Positions 31,770 through 38,350 of a stretch of DNA of 59,793 nucleotides are shown here, one piece after another. Every line of letters starts with the position of its first letter. The first letter of the stretch is position 1. The position numbers and the translations under genes were made by a program. The stretch comes from Bacteroidetes bacterium GWA2_32_17. Lineage in GTDB: Bacteria > Bacteroidota > Bacteroidia > Bacteroidales > GWA2-32-17. The notes beneath the pieces are model-generated. The model ran no database searches. It was not told the origin of the DNA and saw only the letters and a program-made list of their open reading frames with translations. The stretch spans positions 1 through 59,793 of the forward strand of contig MENF01000191.1 of the NCBI GenBank assembly GCA_001769035.1. The letters are read 5' to 3'.

Positions 31770-31835
31770 CATTCTTCGCTTGCGATAGCTATCGAAATGG
31801 AGAGAGACAGCTTGTCTTAAGCGAAGTCGAAAGAG
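31770..31835. repeat. Degenerate CATTCTTCGCTTGCGATAGCTATCG repeat
   Basis: The piece ATTCTTCGCTTGCGATAGCT followed by ATCG and later AAGCGAAGTCGAAAGA resembles the GAAGAATC repeat family at 21733 and 54881. Contains the palindrome CGATAGCTATCG. Confidence 0.4.
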
Positions 31836-31846
31836 GGTAAGGTCAT

Positions 31847-31880
31847 AAAAAAACTGCCCTGAATACCAGGACAGTTTTTA
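31847..31880 (-). terminator. Terminator of the c-type cytochrome gene
   Basis: AAAAACTGCCCT at left pairs with AGGACAGTTTTT; read on the minus strand the stem ends in a T run, 24 bp after the cytochrome stop codon. Confidence 0.8.
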
Positions 31881-31904
31881 CAAAACATATGAAAAAAGGA
31901 AAAA

Positions 31905-32834
31905 TTAAAAACCAGGGAAAGCTACTGTGTCTTGTCCCATTACCATCATATTTCTAATATCTTGATCGGTAATAGATTGTGATGGCATAGCATCTGCATC
32001 GGCACAGCCGCTATCAATATGTTCGCGATCGGTTGGCATTCCCCAAATAGCTTTATGTTGAATTTCGTGTGGATCACCTCTGAACATATCGCCTAAATAA
32101 ATACCATTGCAATAAACATTAATTTGAGTACCATCGGCACCGTGGCAACCTTTACATTTTGCATTATATGTAACTAACCCTGCTGCACCATCGCCACCTT
32201 TACCAATTTCTGAAAATGTTTTTGTACCGGTAGGATAAACTCCTGAAGTACTTAAATCGTAAAATTCGTTAACATTATGAGCTGTTTCTTTTAAAAATTT
32301 TACAGCATCCCAAATTTGGGCATCACTTAAAATTGTACCATAATCGGGCATTGTGCCATTGTATGAAGTTTGTGTGCTCTTTGTTCTGCCACCGGTATTT
32401 TTAATTGCATCAAAAATTTGACGAATGTTGTGAGTTTTAGCCCATGCATACAAATTTAATTCAGCAGCAACAGGATACGTAGCAGTAGGAGTTTTGTTAA
32501 TTAACACGCCATTTCTGCCTAATAAATCCCAGCCATGACAACTTTTACATCTGTAAAAATTTGTGTAAGCGTTAGGGTAATCAGTTTGGTTTGCACTAAT
32601 GTAATTTAAAGGGTGGTCATAAATCTGGGCACCATTAACACCGTTAGCAGCGTCATAAGCAGACTGGTCGGCAGCAGTAACTGCATTTGCATCAGTACCA
32701 TTTGTGCCATTTGTGCCATTTGTGCCAGCAGGACCTATTTCGCCATCTTTACCTTTACAACCACTAAAGGCAATGGTATAAAATGCAATTGAAGCAATTG
32801 CAAACACACTAAATAAAAAATTTTTCTTTTTCAT
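31905..32834 (-). CDS. Dihaem c-type cytochrome lipoprotein
   Basis: A 309-residue lipoprotein with a signal peptide ending IAFSGC (Cys26), a short collagen-like stretch at 28-48 (GKDGEIGPAGTNGTNG), and two class I cytochrome c domains. Haem sites are Cys96-x2-Cys99-His100 and Cys227-x2-Cys230-His231; probable Met ligands are in TMPDYG (Met162) and AMPSQS (Met283). It is likely attached to the cell envelope and passes electrons. Its promoter shares a tandem hexamer element with the next gene (33099-34541), and a two-component system is encoded nearby, so the two haem proteins probably form one regulon. Electron donor and acceptor are unknown. Confidence 0.9.
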   Translation of the reverse strand: MKKKNFLFSVFAIASIAFYTIAFSGCKGKDGEIGPAGTNGTNGTNGTDANAVTAADQSAYDAANGVNGAQIYDHPLNYISANQTDYPNAYTNFYRCKSCHGWDLLGRNGVLINKTPTATYPVAAELNLYAWAKTHNIRQIFDAIKNTGGRTKSTQTSYNGTMPDYGTILSDAQIWDAVKFLKETAHNVNEFYDLSTSGVYPTGTKTFSEIGKGGDGAAGLVTYNAKCKGCHGADGTQINVYCNGIYLGDMFRGDPHEIQHKAIWGMPTDREHIDSGCADADAMPSQSITDQDIRNMMVMGQDTVAFPGF

Positions 32835-32868
32835 GTTATTTTAAATAAATTATTAAATTAATTAAGCA

Positions 32869-32945
32869 CAAAGATATTTTTCAATTCTGTATAGATTCTG
32901 AATTTTATATTAAAGAACATGTTTTTTATATGTTTTACAACATAT
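32869..32945 (-). promoter_or_regulatory. Cytochrome gene promoter with tandem CAGAAT element and dyad
   Basis: On the minus strand, -7 box TATCTTTG is at 32869-32876. CAGAAT occurs twice, 11 bp apart (plus-strand 32884-32889 and 32895-32900), ending exactly 7 bp before the -7 box. Further upstream is a perfect dyad ATATGTT-N4-AACATAT at 32928-32945, which contains ATGT-N6-ACAT. Both elements recur at 34584-34696. Confidence 0.7.
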
Positions 32946-33027
32946 ATTTAGTATGAATAAATTGTTTAAATTAATTTTTTGAAAAAAACTATAAATTGCA
33001 ACTACTAATTTAACTTTCAAACACCAT

Positions 33028-33060
33028 AAAAAAAACTGCCCCAATAAATTGAGGCAGTTT
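33028..33060 (-). terminator. Terminator of the ethylbenzene-dehydrogenase-like haem protein gene
   Basis: AAACTGCCCCAA and TTGAGGCAGTTT form a stem with an AT loop; on the minus strand a T run follows, 38 bp after the stop codon at 33099. Confidence 0.8.
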
Positions 33061-33098
33061 AATAATTAAAATTAAATGAAAAAACGAAATCTTATGTA

Positions 33099-34541
33099 TT
33101 ATGGTATAAATTTAAGATATTTGGATTCAGAACATCTGTGCTCATAACCATGACGCGAATTATCAAATTCTGCAACATTAAACAAATATTCGATACCCAA
33201 ATCAGTATAATTGATATCATCAGCATTACCTGTATTCAATTTTCTGCTAATTTCAGCTTTCCATGTACCATTACTCCAAACCGCACCTATTGCTAAATCA
33301 CCCCTGCTTCCTGTTGGTACAGCGTGAATTCTTTCACAAACAATTGCATTGAGTGTAGAATATTTAGGCCAATATAATGCTGCATCAACATCACTAACTC
33401 CTGTTGTTGCGTTTCCAACGCATTCTCCACCATCAATTTCAGATTGTGTAATAAACATAGCATCAGCAAAATCTGTAGGATTAGTTTCCATCCATTTTGG
33501 ACGCGATTTATCGGCTATACGATTATGTGAAGCGGCAGCAGTCCCAGCATCACCATAACGACCACCATCTTCGCCATTTGTACCTGACCAAACATCACAA
33601 TATGTATCATCAACATATCCAATCATTGAGAAAGTTCCTGCTGTTACTTCGTGTGATGTTGGATTAATAGTTAAACCTGTACCAGATGCCGATGTTACAG
33701 CACCTCCACGAGCGGCTTTACTATGCCATAAATCGGCACGTCCACTTGCTAACCAAGCATCATCAACAATACCATTTACACTAACATGTGGATCTTGATC
33801 CGTTGGATAATACATGTGGCATTTTGTCATACAACCACCTGTGCTATAAGGGTCACCGGTTGTTGTACCAATAGGCCAATAAAATGAAATCCTATCTTCT
33901 GATTCACCAACACATGGTTTTGCCCATGCTCCACTGGCAAATGACCAAGATGCATCTCTTGTAAAACTAGCAGTAGGATCAGCCCATTCAGATAGAATGT
34001 AAATATCAGTTGAAGTATAAACAGCCCTAACATTTACAGTTATTGAACTATTATAAGCATGACAACCTGCACAATTATTGATTTTTGAAGGGTCATTTGG
34101 TGGGTTATTTGTTTCTCCTAAAGCTACAGTTAAAACAGGGGCATTTGCCCATAAAGCATCCACTACACCATCAACTGTTGGAGGAGTTGTTGTTTTAATT
34201 GCATTTAACTTTGATAAATTATATGATGCACCTATAGTAATTGACTCTGTAGCTTCATTAGTCTTTTTTCCGTTTTTAGATAAGGCTTTTAAAGTAACAG
34301 TATAACTACCTGCGGCAGTATAAGTGTGACTTGGCGAAGCTTCTGTCGAAGTTCCTCCATCGCCAAAAGTCCATTCATAACTTTCTGCATCAACAGAGCA
34401 ATTAGTAAAACTTATTGCTTCATTAGCTGAAGCACTAGTTTTTGATGCTGTAAAACACGCATCGGGTTTTTTTTGGCAACTTGTTGATAAAACAATTATT
34501 GCAATCACAAATAACACAGAAAACAAATTTAATTTTCTCAT
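33099..34541 (-). CDS. PKD plus ethylbenzene-dehydrogenase-type haem-binding lipoprotein
   Basis: A 480-residue lipoprotein (signal ends STSC, Cys22). Residues 30-105 form a PKD domain (YEWTFGDGGTSTEASPSHTY). Residues about 115-480 match the ethylbenzene-dehydrogenase-like haem-binding fold (TPPTVDGVVDALWANAPVL, STDIYILSEWADPTAS, EDRISFYWPI). Covalent haem motifs are Cys157-x2-Cys160-His161 and an unusual Cys237-x3-Cys241-His242. Proteins of this plan bind haem in the periplasm or on the surface and act in electron transfer to or from membrane enzymes. The pairing of PKD with this haem fold is uncommon in my memory. It is monocistronic with its own terminator and shares promoter elements with the dihaem cytochrome gene. 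Confidence 0.8.
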   Translation of the reverse strand: MRKLNLFSVLFVIAIIVLSTSCQKKPDACFTASKTSASANEAISFTNCSVDAESYEWTFGDGGTSTEASPSHTYTAAGSYTVTLKALSKNGKKTNEATESITIGASYNLSKLNAIKTTTPPTVDGVVDALWANAPVLTVALGETNNPPNDPSKINNCAGCHAYNSSITVNVRAVYTSTDIYILSEWADPTASFTRDASWSFASGAWAKPCVGESEDRISFYWPIGTTTGDPYSTGGCMTKCHMYYPTDQDPHVSVNGIVDDAWLASGRADLWHSKAARGGAVTSASGTGLTINPTSHEVTAGTFSMIGYVDDTYCDVWSGTNGEDGGRYGDAGTAAASHNRIADKSRPKWMETNPTDFADAMFITQSEIDGGECVGNATTGVSDVDAALYWPKYSTLNAIVCERIHAVPTGSRGDLAIGAVWSNGTWKAEISRKLNTGNADDINYTDLGIEYLFNVAEFDNSRHGYEHRCSESKYLKFIP

Positions 34542-34583
34542 AACAAAATTATTTAGTTAAAAATTATTAATTTTAAAATCAAA

Positions 34584-34696
34584 CAAAAGTAAAACTCAAA
34601 TCTGTTGAGATTCTGTATTTTTGTATATAATACAGTAACAATCATTATGTTATAAAGCAGTTTTTATGTTGTTATTTTATGTTATACGACATAAAA
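34584..34696 (-). promoter_or_regulatory. Haem lipoprotein promoter with tandem CAGAAT element and dyad
   Basis: On the minus strand, -7 box TACTTTTG is at 34584-34591. CAGAAT and CAGATT lie 11 bp apart (plus-strand 34599-34604 and 34610-34615), again ending exactly 7 bp before the -7 box. A dyad TTTTATGT-N6-ACATAAAA is at 34675-34696. The element order matches the cytochrome promoter. Confidence 0.7.
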
Positions 34697-34715
34697 TTAA
34701 CACAAAGAATTAATC

Positions 34716-35981
34716 TCAATTAACTGGAAAAATTAGTTTTATTTCATGGTACCCATTCTCATAACAATATGTAATTTTCATTTGATAAAGATCTGTAATC
34801 TTTTTAACTATTGTAAGACCCAGCCCAAGCGAATCTGATTTCGATTTATCTTTAAAAAAACGATTAAATAATGTTTCCGGTATAACTGAAAGCATTGAAC
34901 CCGTATTACTAATTACCAATTCCTGTTTAGATAATTTAATTGAAATCGCTCCTCCTTCTATGTTATGTTTTATTGCATTATTAAGTAGGTTTGAAATTAG
35001 TATGTCTGCCAGTGCAGAATTTATTCTAATAATTGGCTTCTGAATAAAAGATGTTGATAGTTTAATATTTTTGAGAGAAATTAATTCTTCAAAATTTAAA
35101 AGATGCTTTTCAATGTATTCCTGCACATCAATATTTTCATTTTCCTGAAATTGTTTATTTTCAATTTTTGTAATTAAAAGCAAGGTATAATTGAGCGTTG
35201 AAAGACGGCGAACCGCATCTATTATTATTAATAAAGATTTGGTTTGTACTTCGCTAATAGTATTTGATTGTAATAGTAATTCGCATTTTGCTTTAATAAC
35301 CGCAAGAGGTGTTTGTATTTCGTGTGAAGCATTTTCGATAAATTCCTTTTGATGCTTATAATCATTCCGTGCTTTATTTGTCATTGCCAATAATTCGTTT
35401 TTAAGTTGTATAAATTCAAATGTTTTGGGATTGCCGATATCTAATGGTTTATTTTTAGTAATATCAAAATTTTGCAACTTATGAAGCATATTGTAAAAAG
35501 GTTTAAATGTTACTTGTGAAATAAAAATATTTAATACAAATAAAGCCAATAACAGAAAAAGAATCAACAATAAAATAAATGTCAGGATGCCTTTAATTAA
35601 ATCTTCTATTTCAAAAAAAGATTTTAATAATTGAATTTTTACAAACTGATTGTCTATTTCATAAGTAAACGTTAAAGCCCTGTATGGTACATATTCACTT
35701 TTGAGTTCATTATACAACATTGTGTCTTTAAGAATATTTATATTCTTATTATTTGATGTTGAGCTGATTATTACTTTTACATCATAAATATTATTAAAGT
35801 TAGGCAATGTATTCTCTTTTTTAATATGTTCTATAATTTTCCCCTTTTTAAATACTAATACTTCGTCTATTTCCCGGTTAATTTCTATACGAACAAGAAA
35901 ATAAAAAATTATACTACCGGCAGTATATACGATAATTGAAGAAATTAAAAAATAAATACTTGTTTTAAAAAGAAGTTTCAT
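34716..35981 (-). CDS. Sensor histidine kinase
   Basis: A 421-residue transmembrane histidine kinase. Transmembrane helices are at about 8-30 and 130-155, with a roughly 100-residue periplasmic sensor between them that has no family I can name. The H-box is EFIENASHEIQTPLAVIKAK with His220. The ATPase part has the N-box ISNLLNNAIKHN, a G1 box of the NTG type and the G2 box SLGLGLTIVKK. It is encoded after the response regulator on the same strand, separated by a leader repeat. It is next to two haem c genes, which suggests the pair reports on a redox or donor signal, though this is inference. Confidence 0.92.
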   Translation of the reverse strand: MKLLFKTSIYFLISSIIVYTAGSIIFYFLVRIEINREIDEVLVFKKGKIIEHIKKENTLPNFNNIYDVKVIISSTSNNKNINILKDTMLYNELKSEYVPYRALTFTYEIDNQFVKIQLLKSFFEIEDLIKGILTFILLLILFLLLALFVLNIFISQVTFKPFYNMLHKLQNFDITKNKPLDIGNPKTFEFIQLKNELLAMTNKARNDYKHQKEFIENASHEIQTPLAVIKAKCELLLQSNTISEVQTKSLLIIIDAVRRLSTLNYTLLLITKIENKQFQENENIDVQEYIEKHLLNFEELISLKNIKLSTSFIQKPIIRINSALADILISNLLNNAIKHNIEGGAISIKLSKQELVISNTGSMLSVIPETLFNRFFKDKSKSDSLGLGLTIVKKITDLYQMKITYCYENGYHEIKLIFPVN

Positions 35982-36170
35982 CTGTTTTTTTATTTTCTAA
36001 TTTATTGATTTTCATTATTTTATGTTTTTATATTTTTCAGATTGAATAAGATTGATTTAGATTGATAGGATTGAAAGCGTTTCAACCTTTTCAATCTTGT
36101 TTTCTCAATCTTTTCAATCTTTTTTCAATCTCATCCCTTAACCTCATTTCTTAACCTCAACCTTAAATAT
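35982..36170 (-). repeat. Modular leader repeat before the histidine kinase gene
   Basis: Read toward the kinase gene: GGTTGAGGTTAAG words, AAGATTGA words, TTGAAACGCTTTCAA centre, TCAATCTT words, CTGAAAAATATAA, AATCAATAAATT block, then the ATG. The hairpin part (36045-36130) is nearly identical to 42955-43065. Confidence 0.75.
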
Positions 36171-36250
36171 GAACATTCCCTTCCCGACAAGTCATGACAA
36201 GTTGTGTGTCTTTTATAGTCTCCGATAAATCGGAGCAAGCAATGGAAGTT

Positions 36251-36931
36251 TCATATCGAATCAGTAAATTTATATCCTATACCATACACAGTTTTTATAT
36301 AGTCGTTGCCTCCAAGAACGATAATTTTTTTACGAAGATTTTTGATGTGAGAATAAATAAAGTCGAACGAATTTGCCATATCCATTTCATCGCCCCACAG
36401 ATGCTCTGCTATAGATTCCTTTGTAACAAATCTATCTTTGTTTGACATGAAGTAAACCAGCAGGTTATATTCTTTTTTTGTTAGAATTAATTCTGTTTCA
36501 TTAATTACAACTTTTAACTGGTCGGGAAAAACTTTAATTTCATTAAAAATTATTTCGTTTTTACCATTAAAATTTCTGCGGCGTATTATTGATTTTATAC
36601 GTGCATTTAATTCTGAAATATTAAAAGGTTTTGTAAGATAATCATCAGCACCAATTTCAAGACCTATTATTTTATCATCCAATGATTTTTTTGCAGAAAT
36701 TATTATTATTCCAGTTGCCTTATTAGTTGACTTTAGTTTTTTAATAATATCAAGACCATTGCCATCGGGAAGCATAATGTCCACAACAATGCAGTCGTAA
36801 TTATAAAGATTAATTTTCTCAAGTGCCATTTCAAATGTAGTACAGGTTTCGCAAACATACCCGTCAAGTATTAAATAATCAATTATACTACTCGAAAGAT
36901 TTTCCTCGTCTTCTATCAAGAGAATTTTCAT
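36251..36931 (-). CDS. OmpR/PhoB-type response regulator
   Basis: A 226-residue response regulator. The receiver domain has acidic residues at 8-9, phosphoacceptor Asp51 (YDCIVVDIMLPDG), and the switch Lys in DDYLTKPFN. The C-terminal winged-helix DNA-binding domain includes LTKKEYNLLVYFMSN and KNLRKKI and ends VYGIGYKFTDSI. It precedes the kinase gene, with which it forms a two-component system. OmpR/PhoB regulators bind direct repeats about 11 bp apart; just such repeats lie in the promoters of the two haem c genes downstream, making those genes likely targets. Confidence 0.95.
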   Translation of the reverse strand: MKILLIEDEENLSSSIIDYLILDGYVCETCTTFEMALEKINLYNYDCIVVDIMLPDGNGLDIIKKLKSTNKATGIIIISAKKSLDDKIIGLEIGADDYLTKPFNISELNARIKSIIRRRNFNGKNEIIFNEIKVFPDQLKVVINETELILTKKEYNLLVYFMSNKDRFVTKESIAEHLWGDEMDMANSFDFIYSHIKNLRKKIIVLGGNDYIKTVYGIGYKFTDSI

Positions 36932-36964
36932 AATAATTAAGTGTATTAAGTATTAAGTACAATG

Positions 36965-37105
36965 AACAATAATAACAATGGTCACACAATAGTTAATACA
37001 ATGGTCACACAATTGTTTTCTAACTATACTACAAATGCTGACAATCGTATGACCATGTATGACAATCGTATGACCATGTATGAAAAAGTATGACCATGTA
37101 TGACA
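36965..37105. repeat. Helically phased word array, copy 3
   Basis: GTATGA words start at 37047, 37057, 37068, 37078, 37088 and 37098 (10-11 bp apart), preceded by AACAATGGTCACACAATAG blocks. The block order is that of copies 1 and 2, but the array is inverted relative to the adjacent minus-strand regulator gene. Confidence 0.8.
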
Positions 37106-37162
37106 ATAAAACAATTGAACAATAGAACAGTGAATTTAGAACTTTTTTGAACCATGAACTTT

Positions 37163-38350
37163 TTAAACTCTTATACCTATTATTAATATATCATCAACTT
37201 GTTCTTCCTGACCTTTCCAATCTAAAAATTTTTTCTTTATAAGTTCTTTCTGCTTATCAACCAATTCATTGCTAACGCTAACTAATGTATCTTCGAGTTG
37301 TTTGTATTTGAATTTTTTACCTTTTGGACCGCCAAACTGGTCGGCATAACCATCAGAAAAGAGATAAACCATATCATTTTTACTAACAGGCAAGCCATTA
37401 TTTGTATATACATCTGCCACTTCATCTTCGTTAACCCCAATAGGAAATTTATCAGCTTTAACTTCACTTAAAACATTATTATGTACATAATATATTGAAT
37501 TATATGCTCCTGCATATTCAACTGTACGCATTTGATTATCAATACATACAAGCGATAAATCCATTCCATCTTTAACACCGCTTTCGTTGTGTGCCTGACG
37601 TAAAATTTCGGTAACACCAACATCAAGAAAACTTAATATTTCGGAAGGTTTTGTAATTCGGTTAATTTTAACTGCCTGATTTAATAAATTATAACCAATA
37701 ACCGACATCATTGCTCCGGGTACACCGTGCCCTGTACAATCAACAGCTGCAACAATTGTATAACCTGAAATTTGCTCTACAAAATAGAAATCGCCACTTA
37801 CAACATCTTTAGGTATATATAAAATGAAACTGTTTGGAAGACATTTTTTAATATAATTATCGGGCGGTAACAAAGCACACTGAATTCTGTAAGCATATTG
37901 AATACTTTGAGTTAATTCTTTCTTCTGATGTGAAATTGTTTCCATTTGCGACATAACGGTATCGCGTTGTGCTTCAATCTCATCACGTTGCGAAATAATT
38001 TCATCGCGTTGAGTTTCAATTTCTTCTTTGTGTAGTATTAAATGCTGCTCACGGGTTTCAATAACATTTTTTTGTTCTTCAATAAGTTTATATTGAGCTT
38101 TAATAAATTTATCCCAATAAAATATTCCTTCAACAACGAGCCAAATTAAAAAAAACAAAAAGGTTAATACAACATAATCTGAAAACAGTTTCCTAATAAA
38201 AGAAGCATTTACAGGAGAACTTTCGGGTGGAAAGAAAAAAAAGTAAACTATTGCAATTACAAAAAAAGCAAAGAAAAGGGAATATCCTGCAACAAATTGT
38301 TTGCGAGTCAAAGAAAGAATCCCATATATTTTTATTTTAATTTCGTTCAT
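37163..38350 (-). CDS. Membrane SpoIIE-type PP2C phosphatase with coiled coil
   Basis: A 395-residue protein with two transmembrane helices (about 18-37 and 58-78), a coiled coil made of repeated 11-residue units (EIETQRDEIISQRDEIEAQRD, about 105-145), and a C-terminal SpoIIE-type phosphatase (RIQCALLP, DVVSGDFYF, AAVDCTGHGVPGAMMS, KDGMDLSLV, LFSDGYADQFGG). The metal-binding Asp residues are present. A longer TTG start at 38377 is rejected because those bases are the promoter box TACTTTTG; the ATG at 38350 is used. It is upstream of the two-component genes on the same strand but separated from them by array copy 3. A partner is not in the window except possibly the SiaC-like protein. Confidence 0.88.
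   Translation of the reverse strand: MNEIKIKIYGILSLTRKQFVAGYSLFFAFFVIAIVYFFFFPPESSPVNASFIRKLFSDYVVLTFLFFLIWLVVEGIFYWDKFIKAQYKLIEEQKNVIETREQHLILHKEEIETQRDEIISQRDEIEAQRDTVMSQMETISHQKKELTQSIQYAYRIQCALLPPDNYIKKCLPNSFILYIPKDVVSGDFYFVEQISGYTIVAAVDCTGHGVPGAMMSVIGYNLLNQAVKINRITKPSEILSFLDVGVTEILRQAHNESGVKDGMDLSLVCIDNQMRTVEYAGAYNSIYYVHNNVLSEVKADKFPIGVNEDEVADVYTNNGLPVSKNDMVYLFSDGYADQFGGPKGKKFKYKQLEDTLVSVSNELVDKQKELIKKKFLDWKGQEEQVDDILIIGIRV

Follow-up and report, generated by a model that had tools for sequence, protein, structure and literature searches.

Tandem operators are a known feature of response regulators of the OmpR/PhoB type. In enterobacteria, PmrA (BasR) is described as binding two half-sites 5 bp apart in a head-to-tail arrangement, with Asn188 and Asn196 of its helix 8 reading bases (PMC3973317, PMC4660055). 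In Porphyromonas gingivalis, PorY and PorX are called orphans, PorX having a PglZ domain and being encoded apart from PorY (PMC4800418), and HaeSR, of interest here since the proposed targets carry haem, is described as a haemin-responsive system of this organism (PMC5706477). A -7 promoter box, TAnnTTTG, is described for F. psychrophilum (PMC9723704). Here we analyzed a stretch of 59,793 nucleotides from Bacteroidetes bacterium GWA2_32_17 (contig MENF01000191.1; the whole stretch is called the window below), in which a tandem direct repeat, CAGAWT-N5-CAGAWT, stands at a fixed distance before the -7 boxes of two haem protein genes, next to genes for a PorY-family sensor histidine kinase and an OmpR/PhoB-type response regulator. 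Our analysis suggests that the repeats are quite probably operators of this regulator (36251-36931), driven by the kinase and activating the two haem genes. Taken separately, binding of the repeats by the regulator appears highly likely, and activation of the haem genes by it likely.

The genes, operators, -7 boxes, palindromes and hairpin of the locus discussed here lie on the minus strand. Operator 1, CAGAATCTATACAGAAT (32884-32900), is followed after exactly 7 bp by the -7 box TATCTTTG (32869-32876) and belongs to the putative promoter of a dihaem cytochrome c gene (31905-32834), whose product matches Cytochrom_C and has two CxxCH motifs (CKSCH and CKGCH). Operator 2, CAGAATCTCAACAGATT (34599-34615), stands at exactly the same distance from the -7 box TACTTTTG (34584-34591), before a gene (33099-34541) for a haem protein that combines a PKD domain with a haem domain of the ethylbenzene dehydrogenase type (EB_dh, PF09459) and contains a CxxCH and a CxxxCH motif, one of each. 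The start codons (ATG) at 32834 and 34541 lie downstream of the respective sets, the repeats have a period of 11 bp at both genes, and both boxes conform to the TAnnTTTG -7 box of Bacteroidota sigma-A. The arrangement is thus exactly the one given in the preliminary description: CAGAAT-N5-CAGA(A/T)T, 7 bp and TAnnTTTG before both genes. Both haem proteins start with a signal-peptide-like segment with a Cys and are, by that token, presumed lipoproteins. Between the two genes lies a hairpin with a T run that resembles an intrinsic terminator (33033-33060; -16 kcal/mol, z -5.2), which suggests that they are probably separate transcription units with their own promoters.

Promoters of Bacteroidota typically have a -33 TTTG box about 17-23 bp from the -7 box. 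Reading of the sequence showed no TTTG 17-23 bp upstream of either window -7 box, so that the -33 element of a Bacteroidota sigma-A promoter is lacking at both haem promoters; the repeats fill that stretch, as the preliminary description had proposed. The window promoters differ from flavobacterial sigma-A promoters in having a direct repeat at the -33 position instead of TTTG. What they have in common with these promoters, as far as the latter are described, is the -7 box TAnnTTTG (PMC9723704).

The full pattern CAGAWT-N5-CAGAWT-N7-TAnnTTTG was found twice in the window, compared with 0.00004 occurrences expected by chance from a first-order Markov model of the window. In the whole genome of the organism (G000; 4.77 Mb in 234 contigs), it was again found twice, with 0.003 expected, and both copies lie beside the regulator gene and before the haem genes. 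The genome-wide scan for the repeat before TAnnTTTG that had been suggested earlier therefore returned only two perfect matches, namely the two haem promoters. There were no places with one mismatch to the full pattern and five with two mismatches. The bare repeat, with up to two mismatches, showed no enrichment in the window (20 found and 14.9 expected from shuffles), indicating that the signal is in the perfect copies and not in a general abundance of CAGAAT.

The presence of an OmpR/PhoB-type regulator and its kinase beside the haem genes was borne out by domain matches. The regulator has a receiver domain (PF00072, 89.3 bits) and a Trans_reg_C domain (PF00486, 68.3 bits), both above their cut-offs, and its receiver keeps the acidic pair, the phospho-acceptor Asp and the Lys (in IEDEEN, VVDIMLP and TKPF). 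The kinase (34716-35981), with HisKA and HATPase_c domains, matches the PorY family model of NCBIfam (NF052314) with 431.6 bits against a cut-off of 350, over residues 2-418 of 421. Among the best 25 of 91 models of named equivalogs (PmrA, PhoB, QseB, CusR, RprY and others), the regulator stays below the cut-off in each, the best score being 176.7 against 350.

Of the 395 genomes of the class, 113 have homologues of the kinase (E <= 1e-45, with at most four candidates scored in most genomes). These were recognised as its relatives by sequence search, the comparison with the PorY model being confined to the window's kinase. In the neighbourhoods of the best 29 kinases the CAGAWT repeat recurs many times. 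Sixty neighbourhoods were added, comprising most of those ranked next, a weaker batch, and one (L216) that was chosen for holding a site. In the resulting 89 neighbourhoods, noncoding sequence amounts to 42,652 of 382,603 bases when frames of at least 100 codons are excluded. It holds 23 perfect repeats with a gap of 5, in 21 loci, compared with none for gaps of 1, 3, 4 and 6-12, and three for a gap of 2, all in one locus. Inverted, backwards and complement forms of the repeat were likewise absent as perfect noncoding copies from these neighbourhoods. Inside coding frames there are four perfect repeats with a gap of 5 and four with a gap of 6, and this equality places the gap-5 excess in the noncoding part. 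When one mismatch is allowed, 46 noncoding gap-5 sites are present in 38 of the 89 loci, as against 2-9 sites for the other gaps. These sites were found in 27 of the 49 loci whose regulator shares 55% identity or more with that of the window, in 11 of 37 with 45-55% identity, and in none of the remaining three. As a further comparison, 60 permuted hexamers with a gap of 5 gave a mean of 0.8 noncoding sites in the first 29 loci, versus 24 for CAGAWT.

The 46 foreign sites were picked by the repeat alone, the -7 box not being a criterion. Over the 43 bases read, TAnnWTYG starts 7 bp past the repeat in 22 of them and 8 bp past it in three, and at no other offset. When the 46 sites are stacked, offsets 7 and 8 past the repeat show T and A, and offsets 11-14 a run resembling TTTG. 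T is preferred around the half-sites too, both as the fourth base of the spacer (39 of 46) and two positions ahead of the first CAGA (35 of 46), which suggests an 11-bp repeating unit similar to TnCAGAWTnnC. A 28-column matrix made from these foreign sites, none of which comes from the window's genome, ranks operator 1 first (31.4 bits) and operator 2 second (28.3 bits) in the window, with the next position at 13.2 bits. The proposed link between the regulator, the CAGAAT direct repeat and a fixed distance to the -7 box was thus recovered independently across the class, including the window's own family (G005, see below).

Such foreign sites bear on whether the two window sites might owe their likeness simply to the copying of one promoter, without any regulator being involved. 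Both sites start with CAGAATCT and both genes have an upstream palindrome, as might be left by copying. But outside the repeat, box and palindrome the upstream regions are unlike (as read by eye, with no alignment), the palindromes stand at different distances (52 versus 86 bp), and the same element occurs in many foreign genomes, which makes copying an extremely unlikely explanation. The lack of a -33 box, together with a site for a head-to-tail dimer in its place, is best explained by an activator that contacts RNA polymerase. Alternatively, the same regulator could act as a repressor that sits over the -33 region and blocks the polymerase until a signal removes it, and the operator does cover the -33 region of both promoters. 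However, no -33 box is seen there that would need blocking, and the strict 7-bp distance kept across many genera would fit polymerase contact, whereas a repressor should tolerate varied positions. Repression is therefore improbable in our assessment, and activation by the 36251-36931 regulator is preferred.

Across the 395 genomes, the pattern CAGAWT-N5-CAGAWT-N7-TAnnWTYG has 30 matches in 23 genomes, while the reversed control has none. Its carriers include 20 of the 113 genomes with a kinase and three of the 282 without (Fisher p 2.9e-9, relatedness not corrected); leaving out the window's genome, 19 of 112 kinase genomes carry the pattern (p 8.8e-9, likewise uncorrected). Of the 28 matches outside the window, 12 are within 5 kb of a kinase gene. 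The three carriers that have no kinase match at the cut-off used would be expected if some other DNA-binding protein read the repeats and the two-component pair were a bystander. Against this stand the co-occurrence of the motif and the regulator clade across the 395 genomes, the crowding of sites around the pair, and the fact that one of the three exceptions (G116, below the kinase cut-off) has its site directly before the gene of a same-clade regulator with 51% identity to that of the window. Another reader of the repeats is thus very improbable, and the 36251-36931 regulator is the favoured one.

Several observations weigh against this assignment. The Fisher test ignores relatedness, and because at most four candidates were scored in most genomes, the label 'without kinase' is not certain. 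The WTYG form of the -7 box was chosen after the best 29 kinase loci had been seen, and with the TTTG form 13 of the 28 matches outside the window remain (counted by eye). A noncoding site, even with one mismatch allowed, is missing in 51 of the 89 kinase neighbourhoods. Among the permuted hexamers in the first 29 loci, AATCWG reached 11 sites and AGATWC, the next, six, compared with the 24 of CAGAWT. For a regulator from the same genus (G009), 65% identical to the window's, the short contig shows no site with two mismatches allowed, and the promoter of the window's own regulator gene has none either, even at two mismatches. Furthermore, none of 14 loci with orthologues of the cytochrome (seven from named genomes and seven from unnamed ones) has the repeat upstream with up to one mismatch, although at one of them (L062) only 161 bp of upstream sequence are available.

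The last point touches directly on the preliminary description, according to which the idea would fail if relatives that have kept the regulator lacked the motif at these genes. Taken literally, this is the case for the cytochrome in four genomes with the kinase (G068, G046, G229 and G323). In these four, the cytochrome gene is on another contig than the kinase gene, and sites were found at other genes, which we read as rewiring of targets and not as an argument against binding. Had only the cytochrome been followed, with its 14 loci devoid of the repeat, the finding would have been rejected; it was the search guided by the kinase that found the sites.

We also examined the genes behind the sites. 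For the 28 matches outside the window, the longest downstream frame codes for a PepSY_like protein in 10 cases, an OmpR-type regulator in three, a protein with a weak beta-propeller match in three, and something other or unrecognised in 12. The 46 sites near kinases are before a regulator gene in 16 cases, a PepSY-like gene in 10, and another gene in 17, with three having no frame within 300 bp; these loci were centred on the kinase/regulator pair, which favours such neighbours in the counts, and their PepSY-like genes were scored with a profile of the ten PepSY_like proteins from the 28 matches. One case comes from the window's own family (G005, locus L241), in which genes for a regulator, a kinase, a TonB-receptor-like protein and a PepSY_like protein lie in a row. 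The regulator gene, whose product is 59% identical to the window's, is preceded by CAGATT-N5-CAGATT-N7-TATTTTTG, and the PepSY_like gene by a repeat with one mismatch 7 bp before TACTTTTG.

In the window's own genome, a six-frame search for PepSY_like gave no match, while the same search was positive in five of ten genomes. It also gave none in G046, yet a protein of this genome (L160) passes the family cut-off by hmmscan. Because the six-frame search thus overlooks weak members, the absence of a PepSY_like gene from the window's genome is likely and not proved. Relatives of the EB_dh protein (360-residue query) were found in only two of 394 other genomes of the class and are distant (30-32% identity); their loci (L133 and L134) have no repeat with up to one mismatch. 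In the other nine genomes of the family, the matches listed are N-terminal ones of the PKD type, and a mobile origin of the EB_dh gene was not apparent, since viral contigs gave no match and plasmids gave partial, mostly PKD-type ones. Orthologues of the dihaem cytochrome (50-80% identity by tblastn) occur in environmental Bacteroidota, Chlorobiota, the FCB group and Neomarinimicrobiota (L061-L067), at loci where no relative of the EB_dh protein or of the regulator was found. Given the missing site at the window's own regulator gene, the undetected PepSY_like gene and the four kinase genomes whose cytochrome orthologue lacks the site, the simplest reading would make the regulator and its operator ancient and the haem genes their new customers in the window's lineage, i.e., a lineage-specific rewiring.

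At 28 of the 29 top kinases, the regulator encoded nearby shares 54-65% identity with that of the window. In most cases its recognition helix resembles SFDFIYSHIKNLRKKL; the window's regulator has SFDFIYSHIKNLRKKI. Four paralogues in the window's genome (E <= 1e-15, about 30% identity) differ at this place and are without two residues of the recognition-helix segment. PmrA/BasR is among the closest solved relatives by sequence and aligns with the window's regulator over its full length. In this alignment, the Asn of KNLRKK in the window's regulator falls on an Asn of BasR, which we take to be Asn196 from the order of residues given for PmrA (PMC3973317, PMC4660055). The likeness to the PmrA system thus extends to the OmpR/PhoB type of regulator and to two 6-bp half-sites with a 5-bp gap, the head-to-tail binding being described for PmrA. 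The differences are in the half-sites (CTTAAT/CCTAAG for PmrA, CAGAWT in the window), the Bacteroidota -7 box, the PorY-family kinase and the targets. A literature search, covering mostly openly available papers, found no description of a CAGAWT-N5-CAGAWT operator; the operator proposed here would add a new one to the tandem operators known for this type of regulator.

The underlying mechanism might be as follows. The PorY-family kinase would drive the regulator, which upon phosphorylation presumably dimerises. Each of its two winged-helix domains would then occupy one CAGAWT half-site in a head-to-tail arrangement, the half-sites being 11 bp, or about one helical turn, apart. The operator would replace the missing -33 box, and the bound dimer would contact RNA polymerase and switch on the two separately terminated haem genes. 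In relatives, the operator would mostly serve the regulator gene itself and genes for PepSY-like secreted proteins, whereas in this lineage, where such sites were not found, it would serve the two haem genes next to the pair. Anaerobic respiration is probably a further input, through a distal palindrome of the Crp/Fnr type.

This palindrome is present at both haem genes, as TATGTTGTAAAACATA (32929-32944), 52 bp ahead of the cytochrome gene's -7 box, and as TATGTCGTATAACATA (34678-34693), 86 bp ahead of that of the EB_dh gene. Because both promoters carry it, they are probably not under the 36251-36931 regulator alone, and an input from a Crp/Fnr-type regulator is plausible. It could even be that the palindrome is the main control, linked to anaerobic respiration, with the tandem repeat as a minor modulator. 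The genome contains six perfect copies, compared with 0.5 expected, two of them at the haem genes from which the pattern was partly drawn, and palindromes of the TGTYRTAWAACA type occur also in contigs C14, C22, C110, C111, C205 and C211. Copies with up to one mismatch lie near genes for NapC/NirT-type, NrfD-type and multihaem cytochrome proteins; contig C14 alone has three (0-1 mismatch) together with genes for a Crp-type regulator, a NapC/NirT-type cytochrome and an NrfD protein. In addition, a perfect 18-bp palindrome of the same type, ATGTGTTATATAACACAT, is found at a cytochrome orthologue of Chlorobiota (L063), its core 74 bp before the start. The locus would resemble Crp/Fnr-controlled ones in having such a palindrome at both genes and near respiratory haem genes, in a genome with a Crp-type gene. 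On the other hand, the enrichment is weak once one mismatch is allowed (21 copies versus 13 for the reversed control) and is absent at two mismatches (214 versus 291), a perfect TGTTNNNNAACA is upstream of only one of the 14 cytochrome orthologues, and the distance to the -7 box differs between the two genes. We consider the palindrome as main control rather unlikely.

The most interesting consequence of these data is the link to the PorY family. In P. gingivalis, PorY is described as an orphan, and its partner PorX, a PglZ-domain protein, is encoded elsewhere; the window's kinase belongs to the PorY family by NCBIfam, but the gene of an OmpR-type regulator lies near it here, as is true of 28 of the 29 top kinase loci. 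We give about even chances to a broader reading, in which PorY-family kinases generally have an OmpR-type regulator of their own, which recognises CAGAWT-N5-CAGAWT at 7 bp upstream of the -7 box. This would be an undescribed module found throughout the class in Bacteroidota, with PepSY-like secreted proteins and the module itself as the usual output. The orphan PorY of P. gingivalis would have lost its partner, and the window's lineage would have rewired the module to an electron-transfer pair (the dihaem cytochrome and the EB_dh protein) with an added Crp/Fnr input. For a two-component family whose kinase is present in 113 of the 395 class genomes, an operator can now be predicted precisely, including its fixed distance to the -7 box, and the regulon of PorY-family kinases becomes directly predictable. 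The window itself would offer a concrete example of a conserved signalling pair that has been pointed at new, haem-carrying targets.

No Rfam match was found in 31800-37300, and E. coli-type promoter patterns were uninformative (34 found, 31.9 expected). Upstream of the regulator gene (36975-37107), ACAATGGTCACACAATAGTT is present twice (95% alike) and units of the GTATGACCATGTATGACAAT type four times; they are distinct from the CAGAAT motif. The 269-bp gap between the regulator and kinase genes (35982-36250) holds repeats of the CAATCTTTT/AAGATTGA type, with locus L083 noted alongside, and AAGATTGA repeats like these also occur in contig C14, close to a palindrome site. Among the 28 relatives that show both genes, the regulator and kinase genes touch or overlap in most.

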